A stretch of 64,000 nt of DNA from Brachyspira murdochii DSM 12563. GTDB lineage: Bacteria; Spirochaetota; Brachyspiria; Brachyspirales; Brachyspiraceae. Location: positions 2,479,510 through 2,543,509 of the forward strand of contig NC_014150.1 in NCBI RefSeq assembly GCF_000092845.1, given 5' to 3'. The position numbers and the translations under genes are program-made. Positions 32,459 to 48,166 of the stretch are shown here, piece by piece; position 1 is the first letter of the stretch, and the number at the start of each line of letters is the position of its first letter. The notes under the pieces were generated by a model. That model worked only from the letters and a program-made list of their open reading frames with translations. It did not search any database and was not told the origin of the DNA.

Positions 32459-32496
32459 AAGGGCGGTATCTTTTTTTAAGGTGCTGTCCTTTTTAT
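32459..32496 (+). terminator. terminator of the macroglobulin gene
   Basis: Twelve-base arms pair completely using several G-U pairs, around a T-rich 9-base loop, followed by TTTTT. Confidence 0.75.
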
Positions 32497-39711: not shown

Positions 39712-39798
39712 AAATCCTGCATTATTAACTTTATGATTAGTATACTAAAATAATTTATATTGTCAATTAAAAGTTAATAAAAAAGTTGTTTTTAAGTA

Positions 39799-39826
39799 TT
39801 GCAATATTACTCAAAAATATTATAAT
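39799..39826 (+). promoter_or_regulatory. promoter of the ilv leader and operon
   Basis: TTGCAA at 39799-39804 and TATAAT at 39821-39826 with 16 bases between. The expected transcript start is near 39833, about 23 bases before the leader ATG and 300 bases before ilvB. Confidence 0.55.
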
Positions 39827-39855
39827 ATGTATCAAATATCGAAAGGAGAAAGAAG

Positions 39856-40005
39856 ATGAAAATGTCACCTGCTTACAGTATGACCTACGATTCTGTTTTT
39901 ATTAAACAAATCTCATCTGCAATTAATTTTAATAATTCTAGTAAATCAATAAAAAATATTATTCTCAATATTCTCCTATCTATTCTTGTCAATATCCTGT
40001 TATAA
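39856..40005 (+). CDS. branched-chain amino acid leader peptide (putative)
   Basis: A 49-codon open frame with AAAGGAG seven bases before its ATG, between a promoter and ilvB. The peptide opens MKMSPAYSMTYDSVF and ends with residues 32-49 IKNIILNILLSILVNILL, in which 13 of 18 residues are Ile, Leu or Val. The six Leu use five codons (CTC twice, CTA, CTT, CTG, TTA), including several that the surrounding genes seldom use. This is the hallmark of an attenuation leader that senses charged tRNA. No intrinsic terminator was found before ilvB; the CTCCT at 39973-39977, inside the Leu-Leu codons, could pair over five bases with the ilvB ribosome-binding site AGGAG at 40125-40129. The function is inferred. 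Confidence 0.8.
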   Translation: MKMSPAYSMTYDSVFIKQISSAINFNNSSKSIKNIILNILLSILVNILL

Positions 40006-40050: not shown

Positions 40051-40086
40051 CATAGTTTTATAATAAAGTTTCTATGAATAGAAATA
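40051..40086 (+). promoter_or_regulatory. alternative RNA hairpins in the ilvB leader
   Basis: TTTCTA/TAGAAA can pair around TGAA, and CATAG at 40051-40055 can instead pair with CTATG at 40072-40076, so the two foldings exclude each other. Neither has a T-tract. A regulatory role is only suggested by the position between the leader peptide and ilvB. Confidence 0.3.
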
Positions 40087-40135
40087 CTAATGATAAAATT
40101 TAAAAAAGGCTATAAAATAATTTAAGGAGTTTGTT

Positions 40136-41809
40136 ATGAAGTTGAATGGTTCAGAAATAATAATGGAAGTTTTGATAGAAGAAGGCGTGGACACTGTATT
40201 CGGATATCCGGGCGGTGCTGCATTGTTTATATATGATGCTATCTATAAATATAGAGATAAACTAAAACATATAATGCCTGTAGATGAAGTAGGAGCATGC
40301 CATGCTGCTGACGGTTATGCCAGAGCAAGCGGAAAAACAGGGGTTGTAATTGCTACTAGCGGACCGGGAGCTACTAATTTGGTAACGCCTTTAGCTACTG
40401 CTTATATGGATAGTGTGCCTTTAGTTGCAATAACAGCTAATGTTCCGGAAACTTTAATAGGCAAAGATTCATTTCAGGAGGTTTTTATTGCCGGTATAAC
40501 AATGCCTATAACTAAACATAATTTTGTTGTCAGGGATATTAATGAACTTGCAAACACTATAAGAAAAGCATTTGTAATAGCTAATAATGGAAGAAAGGGA
40601 CCTGTTTTGATAGATATACCAAAAAATTTCACATTAGCAGAAACAGAGTTTACTAAAAGAGAAAAATTTTCTCCAAAACAAATAGAGATAAGTTCAGAAG
40701 ATGAAAAAACAATAGAGTTAGTTGCAAAATTAATAAATGAATCTAAAAGACCTATTATATATTTCGGAGGCGGTGCTAAGGATTCAAGTGATAAATTAAG
40801 AGAGTTTATGATTAATTCTAATATACCTTCAGTACATACATTAATGGGGGCTGGAGTATTAGGATATAATGAAAAGTTGAATATAGGGCTTTTAGGAATG
40901 CATGGTTCTGCTACTGCTAATAAGGTTATGAATGAAGCTGATTTAATCCTTGCTGTAGGTACAAGATTTAGTGATAGAGTTGCTTTAAATACTTCCAAAT
41001 TCGGAGGAGCTGCTAAAAAGGTGCATATAGATATTGACAGAAGCGAGATTAATAAAAATGTTAATGTCGATTATAGTATAATTGGCGATTTGAATGATGT
41101 ACTAGATAGATTTAATAAATTGGTAAAAAGAGTAGATGATGATGAATGGGTAAAATATTTATCAGATTTAAGAGCCAAAGAGATGAAAGAGGATTCTGAT
41201 AGAAATACCAATAAAGACGGAATTTATCCTAGCAAAGTTATGGATATAATAGGAGAAAAAACTAAAGACGAAGCTATTTATGTTACAGATGTAGGTCAGC
41301 ATCAAATGTGGGCTGTTCAATATATAAGACATACCAAGCCTAGAAGTTTTATAACAAGCGGAGGTTTGGGTACTATGGGATTCGGATATGGTGCTGCTTT
41401 AGGCTGTCAGTTTGCTAAGCCAGATAGAAGGGTAATACATATAACTGGGGACGGTTCTTTTTATATGAACTTAAACGAGGTAGCTACTGCTGTTGAATAT
41501 GATCTTCCAGTTATATCTATCATACTTAATAATAGTACATTGGGTATGGTTAGACAATGGCAGACTATATTTTATGATAAAAGATATTCAAGCACTGATA
41601 TAAATAAAAAAATGGATTATGTAAAAGTTGCAGAAGGTTTCGGAGCTAAAGGCTTTCATTGTGAGACTATAAAAGAGTTTGAAGAGGCTTTTGAAGAGGC
41701 TTTGAAATGTAAATGTCCAGTGTGGATAGAATGCATTATAGATAAAGATTTAAGAGTTTTGCCTATGATACCAGCTGGCGGAACTATAGACGATATAATA
41801 GTAGATTAA
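40136..41809 (+). CDS. ilvB: acetolactate synthase large (catalytic) subunit
   Basis: Condenses two pyruvates, or pyruvate and 2-ketobutyrate, in the first step of Val/Leu/Ile synthesis. 557 residues with the three ThDP-enzyme domains. Seen: an N-terminal YPGGAALFIYDAI..VDEVGACHAADGYARASG, containing the activating Glu, a central FAD-binding-like domain and the ThDP motif GDGSFYMNLNEVATAVEYDLP followed by NN. AAGGAG precedes the ATG. First structural gene of ilvB-N-C-leuA-C-D-B, about 130 bases downstream of a leader peptide. Confidence 0.95.
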   Translation: MKLNGSEIIMEVLIEEGVDTVFGYPGGAALFIYDAIYKYRDKLKHIMPVDEVGACHAADGYARASGKTGVVIATSGPGATNLVTPLATAYMDSVPLVAITANVPETLIGKDSFQEVFIAGITMPITKHNFVVRDINELANTIRKAFVIANNGRKGPVLIDIPKNFTLAETEFTKREKFSPKQIEISSEDEKTIELVAKLINESKRPIIYFGGGAKDSSDKLREFMINSNIPSVHTLMGAGVLGYNEKLNIGLLGMHGSATANKVMNEADLILAVGTRFSDRVALNTSKFGGAAKKVHIDIDRSEINKNVNVDYSIIGDLNDVLDRFNKLVKRVDDDEWVKYLSDLRAKEMKEDSDRNTNKDGIYPSKVMDIIGEKTKDEAIYVTDVGQHQMWAVQYIRHTKPRSFITSGGLGTMGFGYGAALGCQFAKPDRRVIHITGDGSFYMNLNEVATAVEYDLPVISIILNNSTLGMVRQWQTIFYDKRYSSTDINKKMDYVKVAEGFGAKGFHCETIKEFEEAFEEALKCKCPVWIECIIDKDLRVLPMIPAGGTIDDIIVD

Positions 41810-41828: not shown

Positions 41829-43389
<1,561 letters not shown>

Positions 43390-43392
43390 TAA

Positions 43393-43648
43393 TATATACC
43401 TAAACAAATATAGTTTGTCAATTTTTAGCTATTTATAAATGTAATCATAAGTTATATATAGTATAAAGTATTATTAATCATTCATAAAATAGGTTTTAAA
43501 TGTATGATAATACCTGTATTTTAGTTAAAAATGCAGTCCTTTTGCTTCTTTGGGGCACCAAAAGAAGTGGGGGGGCGGGGGCTAGTCCCCGAAAATATTA
43601 AAATATAAAAACTAATTTTTGACAAACTTAAAAATTTTCAGTATATAT
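43393..43648. repeat. intergenic inverted-end element, copy A (between ilvC and leuA)
   Basis: About 256 bases bounded by imperfect inverted ends: the left begins TATATACC...TAGTTTGTCAA (43393-43421); the right is TTTTTGACAAACTT...TTTCAGTATATA (43616-43648). The right end is found again, inverted, at 51533-51559 over 26 bases. The centre carries AAAAATGCAGTCC (as at 59450) and an unusual G-rich stretch at 43567-43592 (GGGGGGGCGGGGG... then CTAGTCCCCG) in an otherwise AT-rich region. It encodes no protein. It resembles a non-autonomous (MITE-like) element. Confidence 0.6.
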
Positions 43649-43720: not shown

Positions 43721-45220
43721 ATGAGAAAGATTAAGATTTTTGATACTACTTTAAGAGATGGAGAACAATCTCCTGGTTGTACTATGAATTTAGAAGAGAA
43801 ATTAGAAATGGCAGCCGAGCTTGATAAATTAGGCGTTGATGTTATAGAGGCTGGTTTTGCTATATGTTCTGATGATGACTTCAATGCTATAAAAGAAGTA
43901 AGCAAGGTTGTAGAAAATGCTAAACTAGCTAGTTTGGCAAGATGCAATAAAAAAGATATAGACAGAGCTTATGAGGCACTTGCTGAGGCTAAACACCCGA
44001 TGCTTCATACTTTTATAGCTACAAGCGATATACATTTAAAGCATAAATTGGAGATGACCAGAGAGCAGGTATTGGAAACAATAAAAGAATCTGTTTCTTA
44101 TGCTAAAACAAAATTTGAGTTTATAGAGTTTTCTGCTGAAGATGCTTCAAGAAGTGATAAAGACTTTTTAGTTCAGGCATATTCAGCAGCTATAGAAAAC
44201 GGAGCTACTACAATCAATGTTCCAGACACTGTAGGATATACTACTCCTTTAGAAATGGCTGAACTTATAAAATATTTAAAAGCCAATGTTAAGGGTATAG
44301 ATAATGTTGATATATCAGTGCATTGTCATGACGATTTGGGACTTGGTACTGCTAATTCTTTATCTGCTGTTTTGGCGGGTGCTACTCAGGTAGAGTGTAC
44401 TATTAACGGTATAGGTGAGCGTGCGGGTAATACTAGTTTGGAAGAAATTGTAATGGGTATTAAAACCAGAAAAGATTTTTATAATGCCTATACTGATGTT
44501 AATACAAAACGTATTTATAAAATTTCAAAATTATTATCTACTATATCAGGTATGGTAGTTGCTCCTAATAAAGCTATAGTTGGTGCCAATGCATTTGCTC
44601 ATGAGGCCGGCATTCATCAGCATGGTGTATTAAAAGAGCGTTCTACTTATGAGATTATGAATGTTGAAGATATAGGAATACCTCAGAATAAAATGGTATT
44701 AGGCAAACATTCTGGAAAGCATGCTTTTAAAGACAGAATAGAATCTTTAGGTTATGATATTGATGATAAGACTTTAGAAGAGGCTTTTATTAAGTTTAAG
44801 AACTTAGCAGATAAGAAAAAAATAGTCACTGATACTGATATAGAGGCATTGCTAATAGGAAATAATGCTTCTGTAGAAAATCCTTTGTATACTTTAAAAA
44901 GCTTTATGGTTAATGACAGCGATTCTATATCATCTTTTGCTTCAGTATCTATACTTGACAATAAAGAGAATATTGTTGAGGCTATAGGTAAAGGAAACGG
45001 TCCTATAGATGCAGCATTCGGAGCTATAGATTCTCTTACTTCAAACAGAGCTAAATTGGTTAATTATAGTATTAATGCTATTACAGAGGGTGAAGATGCT
45101 TTGGGAGAGGTTATTGTCAGATTATCTTCTGATGATAAAACAGTTATAGGAAGAGCAGTTAGTACAGATATTATAGAGGCCAGTTTGATGGCTTATATTA
45201 ACGGCTTGAATAAATTATAA
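43721..45220 (+). CDS. leuA: 2-isopropylmalate synthase
   Basis: First committed step of leucine synthesis: 2-ketoisovalerate plus acetyl-CoA. 499 residues: an HMGL-like TIM barrel (FDTTLRDGEQSPG with the metal Asp; SVHCHDDLGLGTANSL; ERAGNTSLEEIVMGI), a linker (HEAGIHQHGVLKERSTYEIM) and a C-terminal LeuA regulatory domain that senses leucine. Citramalate synthase was considered; the barrel motifs and operon favour LeuA. AAGGG lies before the ATG. Confidence 0.92.
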   Translation: MRKIKIFDTTLRDGEQSPGCTMNLEEKLEMAAELDKLGVDVIEAGFAICSDDDFNAIKEVSKVVENAKLASLARCNKKDIDRAYEALAEAKHPMLHTFIATSDIHLKHKLEMTREQVLETIKESVSYAKTKFEFIEFSAEDASRSDKDFLVQAYSAAIENGATTINVPDTVGYTTPLEMAELIKYLKANVKGIDNVDISVHCHDDLGLGTANSLSAVLAGATQVECTINGIGERAGNTSLEEIVMGIKTRKDFYNAYTDVNTKRIYKISKLLSTISGMVVAPNKAIVGANAFAHEAGIHQHGVLKERSTYEIMNVEDIGIPQNKMVLGKHSGKHAFKDRIESLGYDIDDKTLEEAFIKFKNLADKKKIVTDTDIEALLIGNNASVENPLYTLKSFMVNDSDSISSFASVSILDNKENIVEAIGKGNGPIDAAFGAIDSLTSNRAKLVNYSINAITEGEDALGEVIVRLSSDDKTVIGRAVSTDIIEASLMAYINGLNKL

Positions 45221-45232
45221 TAAATATATAAT

Positions 45233-45275
45233 AGGGCTTATACAATGAATAAAAATTGTAAAAGCCCTTTTTTAA
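45233..45275 (+). terminator. intrinsic terminator inside the leu operon (leuA-leuC gap)
   Basis: Fourteen-base arms, AGGGCTTATACAAT (45233-45246) and ATTGTAAAAGCCCT (45255-45268), with one A-A mismatch, an 8-base loop and TTTTTT. The leuC ribosome-binding site AAGGA follows immediately at 45280. It should reduce transcription into leuCDB unless bypassed. Confidence 0.85.
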
Positions 45276-45290
45276 TTTAAGGATAAAATT

Positions 45291-46538
45291 ATGACTATTA
45301 CTCAAAAAATTTTAGCTGCACATGCAGGTGTTGATAAAGTTGAAGCAGGCGAGCTTATTATGGTTAAAACTGATTTGGTTTTAGGCAATGATATAACAAG
45401 CCCTGTTGCAATTAATGAATTTGAAAAATATGGTTTTGATAAAGTTTTTGATAAAGAAAAAATAGCTTTGGTTATGGATCACTTTGCTCCAAACAAAGAT
45501 ATAAAAGCTGCAGAGCAATGCAAACAATGCAGAGATTTTGCAAATAAGTATGATATTTCAAACTACTACGATGTAGGCGATATGGGAGTAGAACATGCTC
45601 TTTTACCAGAAAAAGGCTTAGTTTCACCCGGTGAGGTTATAATAGGTGCTGATTCTCACACTTGTACTTACGGGGCTTTTGGGGCTTTTTCTACAGGTGT
45701 TGGAAGCACTGATATGGCTGCTGCTATGGCTACAGGTCAGGTTTGGTTTAAGGTGCCTTCTGCTATTAAATTTAATCTTAAAGGTAAATTAAAACCAAAT
45801 GTATCTGGTAAAGATGTTATACTTCATATTATAGGTATGATAGGTGTTGACGGGGCTTTATATAAATCTATGGAGTTTAGGGGAGAAGGTGTTTCTTCCC
45901 TTACTATGGACGATAGAGCTTGTATTGCTAATATGGCTATTGAGGCAGGTGCTAAAAACGGAATATTTGAAGTAGATAATCAAACTATAGAATATTTAAA
46001 AGATATAGTAAAAAGAGATTATACTATTTATAAAGCTGATGATGATGCGGTATATGAAAAAGAATATGATATTGATTTATCTTCAATAGAACCTACAGTT
46101 GCTTGTCCGCATTTACCAGAAAATACAAAAGATGCTAAAGAATTAAAAGATATAAAAGTTGATCAAGTTGTTATTGGTTCTTGTACTAATGGAAGATTAT
46201 CAGACATGGCAACTGCTGCCAACATCTTAAAAGGAAAGAAAATAGCTAAAAATGTTAGATGCATAATTATACCAGCTACTCAGAAAGTGTATAAAGAATG
46301 TATCAAACTAGGTTATATGGATATATTTATTGATGCGGGCTGTGCGGTATCTACTCCTACATGCGGACCTTGTTTGGGAGGATATATGGGAATACTTGCC
46401 CATGATGAGGTTGCTGTTACTACAACTAATAGAAACTTTGTAGGAAGAATGGGAGATAAAACTTCTAAAGTATATTTAGCTAGTCCTGCCACTGCTGCAT
46501 ACAGTGCTTTGACTGGATATATAACAGAGCCTAAATAA
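45291..46538 (+). CDS. leuC: 3-isopropylmalate dehydratase large subunit
   Basis: Aconitase-family [4Fe-4S] enzyme that isomerises 2- to 3-isopropylmalate with LeuD. 415 residues, the shorter archaeal/HacA-like type rather than the ~465-residue E. coli type. Seen: [34 protein letters not shown], and [13 protein letters not shown], supplying the cluster cysteines. AAGGA precedes the ATG, directly behind the terminator-like hairpin. Confidence 0.95.
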
Positions 46539-46582
46539 TGATTATAACAAATGATTATAATAAAATAGGAGAGATTAAATAA

Positions 46583-47071
46583 ATGAAAGCTAGAGGTTTC
46601 GTTCATAAATATGGGAATAATGTTGATACTGATGTTATTATTCCAGCAAGATATTTAAATACTGCAAATCATAAAGAGTTAGCAGCTCATTGTATGGAAG
46701 ATATTGATAAAGATTTTGTAAGCAAGGTAAAGAAAGGCGATATAATGGTAGGAGGAGAGAATTTCGGATGCGGTTCTTCAAGAGAGCATGCTCCTATTGC
46801 CATTAAAGAATCTGGTATATCATGCGTTATAGCTTCTTCTTTTGCCAGAATATTTTACAGAAACTCTATTAATATAGGTCTTGCAATACTTGAATGCGAA
46901 GAGGCAAGCAAAAAAATAGACAATGGCGATGAAGTTGAAGTTGATTTTGACAGCGGCGTTATAACAAATATTACTAAAAATGAAAGCTATAAAGCAGAGC
47001 CTTTCCCAGAGTTTATTAAAAATATAATTAATTCTAATGGGCTTTTGAACTCTATAAAGAATAAGGGGTAA
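46583..47071 (+). CDS. leuD: 3-isopropylmalate dehydratase small subunit
   Basis: 162-residue swivel-domain partner of LeuC. Seen: [18 protein letters not shown] and [18 protein letters not shown], the substrate loop. AGGAG lies upstream and the gene sits 44 bases after leuC. The length agrees with the archaeal-type small subunit that goes with the short LeuC. Confidence 0.95.
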
Positions 47072-47077
47072 TTATTT

Positions 47078-48166
47078 ATGGAAAAAAATATTGTTGTTAT
47101 TAAAGGAGACGGAGTAGGTCCTGAAATAGTTGACAAGGCTATTGATGTATTAAATAAAATAGCTGAAAAATATTCTCATAAGTTTAATTTAGAATATGTT
47201 GATATGGGGGGCTGTTCTATTGATAAATACGGAGTTCCTCTTACTGATGAAAATTTGGAAAAATGTATTAAGTCTGATTCTGTGCTTTTAGGTTCTGTAG
47301 GAGGTCCTAAATGGGATAAAGCAGCTCCGGAAAACAGACCAGAAAGAGGCTTATTAAAACTACGTAAAGAAATGAAGCTTTATGCCAATATAAGACCTAT
47401 AAAAATATTAAAATCTTTAGAATATGCTTCTCCTCTTAAAGAAAGTATATGTAAAGATGTGGTTGATTTTGTTATTGTAAGAGAGCTTACTGGAGGAGTA
47501 TATTTTGGTGAGCATAAATTTGAAGTAGTTAATGGTGTAAGACAGGCGACTGATCTTATGGTTTATAAGGAAGATGAGATATTAAGAATAGGAAAAGTAG
47601 CTTTTGATTTGGCTAGAAATCTTAAAAAACCTTTAACTTCTGTAGATAAAGCTAATGTTCTTCATACTTCTAAATTATGGCGTGAAATTATGAATACTCT
47701 CTCTAAAGAATACAGTGATGTTCCGTATAATGATATGTATGTTGATAATGCGGCTATGCAGATAACTGCTAATCCTTCTCGGTTTGGCGTTATAGTTACA
47801 GAAAATATGTTTGGGGATATACTTTCTGATGAGGCTAGTGTCATAAGCGGTTCTATAGGTATGGCACCTTCTGCCAGTCTTTCTGACGGAGCTATTGGTA
47901 TGTATGAGCCTATACATGGTTCTGCTCCTGATATTGCAGGTAAGGATTTGGCTAATCCTATAGGTACTATACTTTCTCTTGCTATGATGTTCAGATATTC
48001 TTTTGGCATGTTTAATGAGGCAGAAGACATAGAAGATGCTGTTTATAAGGCTATAGATGAAGGATATAGAACAGCCGATATTATGCCTAAACATAATATG
48101 ATGACTTATTTATATAAACAGGTAAGATGTTCTGAAATGGGTGATATTATAGTATCTAATATATAA
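47078..48166 (+). CDS. leuB: 3-isopropylmalate dehydrogenase
   Basis: NAD-dependent oxidative decarboxylation of 3-isopropylmalate to ketoisocaproate. 362 residues, normal. Seen: KGDGVGPEIVDKAIDVL, SVGGPKWD, the RPERGLLKLRKEMKLYANIRPIK substrate loop, and DAAMQ/NPSRFGVIVTENMFGDILSDEAS with the metal-binding Asp residues. It starts six bases after the leuD stop. Last gene of the operon; a hairpin follows. ilvD and a branched-chain aminotransferase are absent from the window. Confidence 0.95.
   Translation: MEKNIVVIKGDGVGPEIVDKAIDVLNKIAEKYSHKFNLEYVDMGGCSIDKYGVPLTDENLEKCIKSDSVLLGSVGGPKWDKAAPENRPERGLLKLRKEMKLYANIRPIKILKSLEYASPLKESICKDVVDFVIVRELTGGVYFGEHKFEVVNGVRQATDLMVYKEDEILRIGKVAFDLARNLKKPLTSVDKANVLHTSKLWREIMNTLSKEYSDVPYNDMYVDNAAMQITANPSRFGVIVTENMFGDILSDEASVISGSIGMAPSASLSDGAIGMYEPIHGSAPDIAGKDLANPIGTILSLAMMFRYSFGMFNEAEDIEDAVYKAIDEGYRTADIMPKHNMMTYLYKQVRCSEMGDIIVSNI

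Follow-up and report, generated by a model that had tools for sequence, protein, structure and literature searches.

A candidate branched-chain leader attenuator of ilvB without an intrinsic terminator in Brachyspira

Leader attenuators rich in branched-chain amino acids (BCAA) are known in Proteobacteria, Actinobacteria and Firmicutes, and in Leptospira as a prediction. For Brachyspira, we have found none described in the open-access literature. While BCAA leader attenuation as such is known, the genus-wide, terminator-less form with extreme codon choice that is described here is new.

The closest described systems are of several kinds. Like the Corynebacterium ilvB-II motif and the Mycobacterium tuberculosis ilvB1 leader (PMC10272879, PMC13236596), the Brachyspira locus has a BCAA-rich upstream open reading frame (uORF) before ilvB, no T-box, and the ribosome as the presumed sensor. 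Those leaders, however, carry a U-tract terminator and an antiterminator, while Brachyspira has neither. The Leptospira ilvB motif WRC-14-1 (PMC8632094, PMC10272879) is likewise a spirochaetal case of a BCAA-rich uORF predicted ahead of ilvB. It has seven representatives and combines a structured RNA with a peptide that contains three or more Val codons in a row, about 70 nt upstream of ilvB; both the peptide and the RNA of Brachyspira are different.

A further parallel is the LEU element of actinobacterial leuA, in which a run of Leu codons has been proposed to pair with the Shine-Dalgarno sequence (SD) of the first gene, and for which mutating the Leu codons reportedly gave results that did not fit classical attenuation (PMC1262725). 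In contrast to the present locus, which precedes ilvB, that element is a conserved pseudoknot at leuA in Actinobacteria. No comparable conserved structure was obtained here, where only a hairpin of 6–7 bp and a helix between run and SD are predicted by RNAalifold, a program that does not predict pseudoknots. Finally, the terminator-less cys leaders of Mycobacterium (PMC1262725) also lack any obvious terminator and have the regulatory residue in runs, and Rho was suggested there, but they involve cysteine instead of BCAA and belong to hosts of high G+C content.

The leader and its operon

The window, that is, the whole stretch of 64 kb that was analysed, belongs to a genome of one contig with 3,241,804 bases. 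Its features around ilvB are the following.

39797–39826, + strand: leader promoter, possibly also an operator, with the palindrome TATTGCAATA (39797–39806) overlapping the −35 box TTGCAA (39799–39804), a 16-nt spacer and the −10 box TATAAT (39821–39826)
39842–39848, + strand: SD of the leader ORF, AAAGGAG
39856–40005, + strand: leader ORF of 49 codons, MKMSPAYSMTYDSVFIKQISSAINFNNSSKSIKNIILNILLSILVNILL
39961–40002, + strand: regulatory run of 14 codons, ATT CTC AAT ATT CTC CTA TCT ATT CTT GTC AAT ATC CTG TTA
39973–39977, + strand: CTCCT within the Leu-Leu codons, a candidate anti-SD of leader and ilvB alike
40069–40084, + strand: short hairpin TTTCTATGAATAGAAA in the spacer, without T-tract, main clade only
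40106–40118, + strand: AAGGCTATAAAAT block upstream of the ilvB SD, with conservation limited to the main clade
40125–40129, + strand: core of the ilvB SD, AGGAG
40136–41809, + strand: ilvB, acetolactate synthase large subunit (TIGR00118, 668.9 bits)
41829–42356, + strand: ilvN, acetolactate synthase small subunit (TIGR00119)
42388–43389, + strand: ilvC, ketol-acid reductoisomerase (TIGR00465)
43721–48166, + strand: leuA, leuC, leuD and leuB (curated families), 331 nt from ilvC

The elements on which the original prediction was built, namely the 49-codon frame, its SD, the TTGCAA-16-TATAAT promoter, the 13 Ile, Leu or Val among the 18 C-terminal residues and the six Leu spread over five codons (CTC twice, CTA, CTT, CTG and TTA), were all reproduced from the sequence at the same coordinates, and CTCCT and AGGAG are present where it had placed them. 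Among the 48 short ORFs of the window that are preceded by an SD, the leader ranks first for Ile, Leu and Val in the last 16 codons (12, with a runner-up at 9), and also for the rarest codons of these amino acids (5). An Ile/Leu/Val leader upstream of ilvB is far above chance expectation.

The leader had been proposed to act on ilvBNC-leuACDB as one unit. Because of the 331-nt gap between ilvC and leuA, only ilvB, and probably ilvBNC, can confidently be assigned to it, while its link to leuACDB is unproven. The same gap holds a G+C-rich element (CTTTTGCTTCTTTGGGGCACCAAAAGAAGTGGGGGGG..., 43530–43605), which with 15 matches in the genome is a dispersed repeat.

Conservation of the frame and codon choice in the run

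Of the 26 congeneric genomes, 24 contain an intact ilvB together with the sequence upstream of it; G019 is without ilvB, and in G023 the region is cut by a contig end. An alignment of this region across the genus had been put forward as a check of the leader, and it supports the leader throughout: in 24/24 species ilvB is preceded by a short ORF that has a GGAG- or GGGG-type SD and ends in an Ile/Leu/Val run, its frame unbroken and its indels being multiples of three. The leader has 43–52 codons in 19 species and 24 codons in the other five (G010–G013 and G016), and its stop codon is 92–134 nt from the ilvB ATG. C-terminally, the leaders finish in versions of ILNILLSILVNIL(L) or of SIILLSLIIIL, whereas the N-terminal part is clade-specific and is missing in the 24-codon form, which indicates that the peptide itself is unlikely to matter. 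Summed over species pairs, pN/pS is 0.51 for the whole frame and 0.44 for the last 14 codons; by this measure, the frame is under purifying selection. The comparison shows the leader to be a real frame, of the translated type, that has been kept through the genus. We also note that G015 has a second ilvB-like gene (L064, G015:C8:2323286-2324878) with three in-frame TAA stops, which is probably a pseudogene.

Since the C-terminal run is hydrophobic, the ORF could be taken for a small functional membrane peptide without a regulatory role. This is highly improbable, considering that the N-terminal half is absent in the five species with the 24-residue form, that the synonymous codon choice is conserved beyond the amino acids, and that the ORF is always located before ilvB.

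The use of rare codons is the strongest signal of the leader analysis. With the 47 genes of the window as background, Val in the run is GTC in 14/14 cases, a codon that makes up 1.6% of Val codons in the window genes. Outside the last 16 codons of the same leaders, the GTY codons are GTT in 20/20 cases and GTC in 0/20. For Leu, CTC and CTG account for 41% and 19% of the codons in the run, compared to 1.9% and 1.7% in the window genes, and the share of CTC among the CTY codons is 51/68 (75%) vs 7%. The shift is also seen for Ile, where ATC rises to 26% from 4% in the window genes, and ATA falls to 5% from 67%. By chance, such rare-codon use has a per-species probability of 0.05 in G001 and of 1e-9 to 6e-4 in the other 23 species. 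For Asn (8/49), Ser (0/24) and Thr (0/12), the C-ending codons are at the background level, and for Phe they are raised (9/14), mostly in one clade. The rare codons are thus limited to Leu and Val and, modestly, Ile, and this restriction of the C-ending bias to the regulated amino acids (with Phe in part) means that it reflects codon choice and not base composition. The original prediction had pointed to uncommon Leu codons in this one leader; the observation can now be extended to Val GTC and Ile ATC across the 24 species.

The position of the codons is also restricted. CTG is the final or penultimate leader codon in 24/24 species (here 39997–39999), despite representing 1.7% of Leu codons. 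Among the same species CTC never occurs at that position, and CTG is never the first Leu of a Leu-Leu pair.

The tRNA genes found in G000 comprise one each for Leu with the anticodons GAG, UAG, UAA and CAA, one for Val (UAC), and Ile GAU. As CUC and CUU share one tRNA, AUC and AUU likewise, and GUC and GUU depend on the sole tRNA-Val, differential charging cannot explain the preference for C-ending codons. The selective-charging theory (summarised in PMC1183508) does not by itself account for it, which makes the preference a puzzle for theory; decoding speed or a constraint at the RNA level remain as its possible sources.

From these comparisons of sequence, we consider it very probable that the short Ile/Leu/Val leader senses amino-acid supply by ribosome stalling. 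The logic of the enterobacterial leaders, which had been proposed to act here, is consequently retained in its first half, with a conserved Ile/Leu/Val leader and rare codons, but a terminator is lacking and the output step can only be inferred.

Absence of an intrinsic terminator

In the classical design, the leader is followed by a terminator. We therefore scanned for hairpins of −4 kcal mol−1 or better followed by a T-tract, with A+U-rich ones included, and found no intrinsic terminator between leader and ilvB in any of the 24 Brachyspira species (0/24). The lack of a T-tract terminator, which had been noted for this genome, is thereby confirmed and extended to the genus. Good terminators are present elsewhere in the window (at 32459, 33876 and 37396), and the same scan identifies, as a positive control, a strong terminator of −17.3 kcal mol−1 between leader and ilvB in G026, from a sister genus in the same family. 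In this genome (L061) ilvB is also preceded by a BCAA-rich leader, MQSLLVIIIIAILVAFYSVTQREA, but one with fewer C-ending rare codons, and its terminator ends 32 nt before the ilvB start.

Leader and terminator are found together upstream of ilvB also in G052 (L129) and G031 (L148), among 40 further regions from the phylum, and, by eye, at the second ilvB copy of G029 (L123). These arrangements in other Spirochaetota are apparently classical BCAA attenuators, meaning that terminator-based leaders exist around Brachyspira, which itself has no terminator. Brachyspira and the terminator-bearing genus of the same family would thus form a natural pair for following a shift of attenuator output away from transcription, towards translation or Rho. 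In another genus of the family (G028, L060) we observed a uORF rich in Ile and Leu, EIINIILDIILKIIL, which has a strong SD and lies at −113 to +43 relative to ilvB. It crosses the ilvB start in another reading frame and uses common codons, and could be a third design or a product of chance.

The Rfam covariance models (T-box, ppGpp and other riboswitches) have 0 matches within the window at the gathering threshold. Nor is there a mutually exclusive antiterminator, that is, a conserved alternative stem with covariation; with no terminator, there is nothing for it to oppose.

One can still imagine transcription attenuation of the classical kind in which a weak A+U hairpin (TTTCTAT...ATAGAAA in the main clade, a 10-bp A+U hairpin in G001) serves as pause site or terminator. 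The main-clade hairpin is kept in 16/17 species, and the corresponding position in G026 holds a true terminator, as G052, G031 and the second ilvB of G029 combine leader and terminator. Yet the stem has 6–7 pairs with one G-C and is followed by no T-tract, the hairpin is not conserved between the clades, and the systematic scan returned 0/24. We regard this mechanism as improbable. The hairpin was also considered as a genome-wide operator and rejected, as the exact motif is single-copy in the genome and near matches are no commoner than in the reversed control.

The main rival to occlusion of the ilvB SD, which is the output preferred here, is Rho-dependent attenuation. In such a scheme, with the amino acids in good supply, the ribosome would leave at the leader stop, after which Rho would load on the exposed C-rich run or the next 110 nt and end transcription before ilvB, whereas a stalled ribosome would shield the run. 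With a rho gene in the genome (PF07497, 107.5 bits), Rho control is possible. It would also fit with the missing intrinsic terminator and with the Rho sites that were suggested, weakly, behind the terminator-less Mycobacterium cys leaders (PMC1262725). Moreover, the run together with 52 nt lies at the 88th–98th percentile for C minus G in 22/24 species. The enrichment is nevertheless confined to the codon run, and the spacer offers no C-rich, G-poor untranslated loading region: the 100 nt past the leader stop are at the 35th–78th percentile for C minus G and at the 0th–33rd for YC steps. These ordinary values and few YC steps make a usual downstream rut unlikely and leave only a rut within the run. 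There, the C-ending enrichment concerns only Leu, Ile and Val (Phe in part) and not Asn, Ser or Thr, which points to codon choice. The original prediction gave Rho equal standing; the rho gene agrees with that, but the spacer, neither rich in C over G nor in YC, does not, and we consider Rho-dependent output rather unlikely.

Pairing of the run with two Shine-Dalgarno sequences, and the promoter

The original prediction further proposed a switch in which CTCCT pairs with the AGGAG of ilvB, and RNA folding of the region as a check. For the 17 main-clade sequences, the RNAalifold consensus is indeed the CUCCU-AGGAG helix, in 17/17 (in one through a C-to-U wobble), together with the 6–7 bp spacer hairpin. 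In the main clade the helix has only 5 bp and spans about 150 nt, and in the short-leader clade a pairing of run and SD is predicted in another register. CTCCT is intact in 21/24 species, being replaced by CTCTT in G001 and G017 and absent in G003. By prediction, the run engages the ilvB SD with a probability of 0.6–0.99 in 21/24 species and of about 0.3 in G018, G020 and G002; with random coding sequence in place of the run, the mean is 0.09–0.32 (11 species).

A point absent from the original prediction is that the SD of the leader itself pairs more strongly with the same codons, its AGGAGAA being complementary to UUCUCCU, with duplexes of 7–9 bp in most species. Compared to random coding sequence, this duplex is in the top 0–5% in 10/11 species, and compared to permuted codons it is not exceptional in most species. 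The pairing energy between run and ilvB SD is −9.4 kcal mol−1 for own-species/within-clade combinations vs −8.6 kcal mol−1 across clades, while for the leader SD the within-clade value of −12.1 kcal mol−1 is worse than the cross-clade one of −12.9 kcal mol−1.

Several controls limit what these numbers can carry. The CUCCU-AGGAG pairing is no stronger than with the same codons permuted, and no covariation or compensatory change for the anti-SD pairing was found in the main or the short-leader clade. As permuted codons pair similarly, the RNA pairing follows from the codons that are present. The predicted SD accessibility of 18 other SD-bearing genes in the window has a median of 0.32, so that a low value for the ilvB SD is not rare. 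The folding energy of the whole region is not clearly lower than that of shuffles in most species (z of about +1.1 for G000). The proposed switch hence keeps its consensus helix, but it has neither covariation nor an excess over permuted codons, and CTCCT is missing in three species; likewise, the folding check returns the helix, whereas the region as a whole is, in G000, no more folded than shuffles.

Considering all of the above, the best explanation, to which we give close to an even chance, is an attenuator of ilvB (probably ilvBNC) without an intrinsic terminator, in which the leader would sense Leu-, Ile- and Val-tRNA and act by SD occlusion. The occlusion step, taken by itself, we prefer tentatively, at slightly less than even. 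In this mechanism, the ribosome on the leader run would sense the charged Leu, Ile and Val tRNAs. When the amino acids are plentiful, it would clear the run, and CUCCU could then pair with the AGGAG of the ilvB SD, so that ilvB would be translated less. Under shortage of Leu, Ile or Val, the stalled ribosome would cover CUCCU and the ilvB SD would be free. The leader's own SD would compete for the same codons, thus limiting the reloading of the leader after it has been read. It is possible, if doubtful, that the Leu codons are a single anti-SD contested by the leader SD and the ilvB SD, such that amino-acid sensing and the gating of translation fall to a single run, with a terminator-bearing counterpart in the sister genus.

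Finally, control could lie at the promoter, with a DNA-binding regulator at the palindrome as the main control and the leader only fine-tuning. TATTGCAATA is a perfect 10-bp palindrome that overlaps the −35 box, and the segment from it to TATAAT is conserved in nearly all of the 24 congeners. Taken alone, the promoter-like score lacks significance (4 found vs 5.2 expected by chance), and the palindrome-centred motif has, with up to three mismatches, 379 matches in the genome vs 268 in the reversed control. A regulator would leave the conserved leader, its SD and its codon bias unexplained, and only a single near copy was found in the genome, which renders this alternative, too, improbable. That copy, with one mismatch (15/16), lies upstream of argF (L066, about 1501–1516) and suggests an operator or promoter type shared with the ilvB leader.
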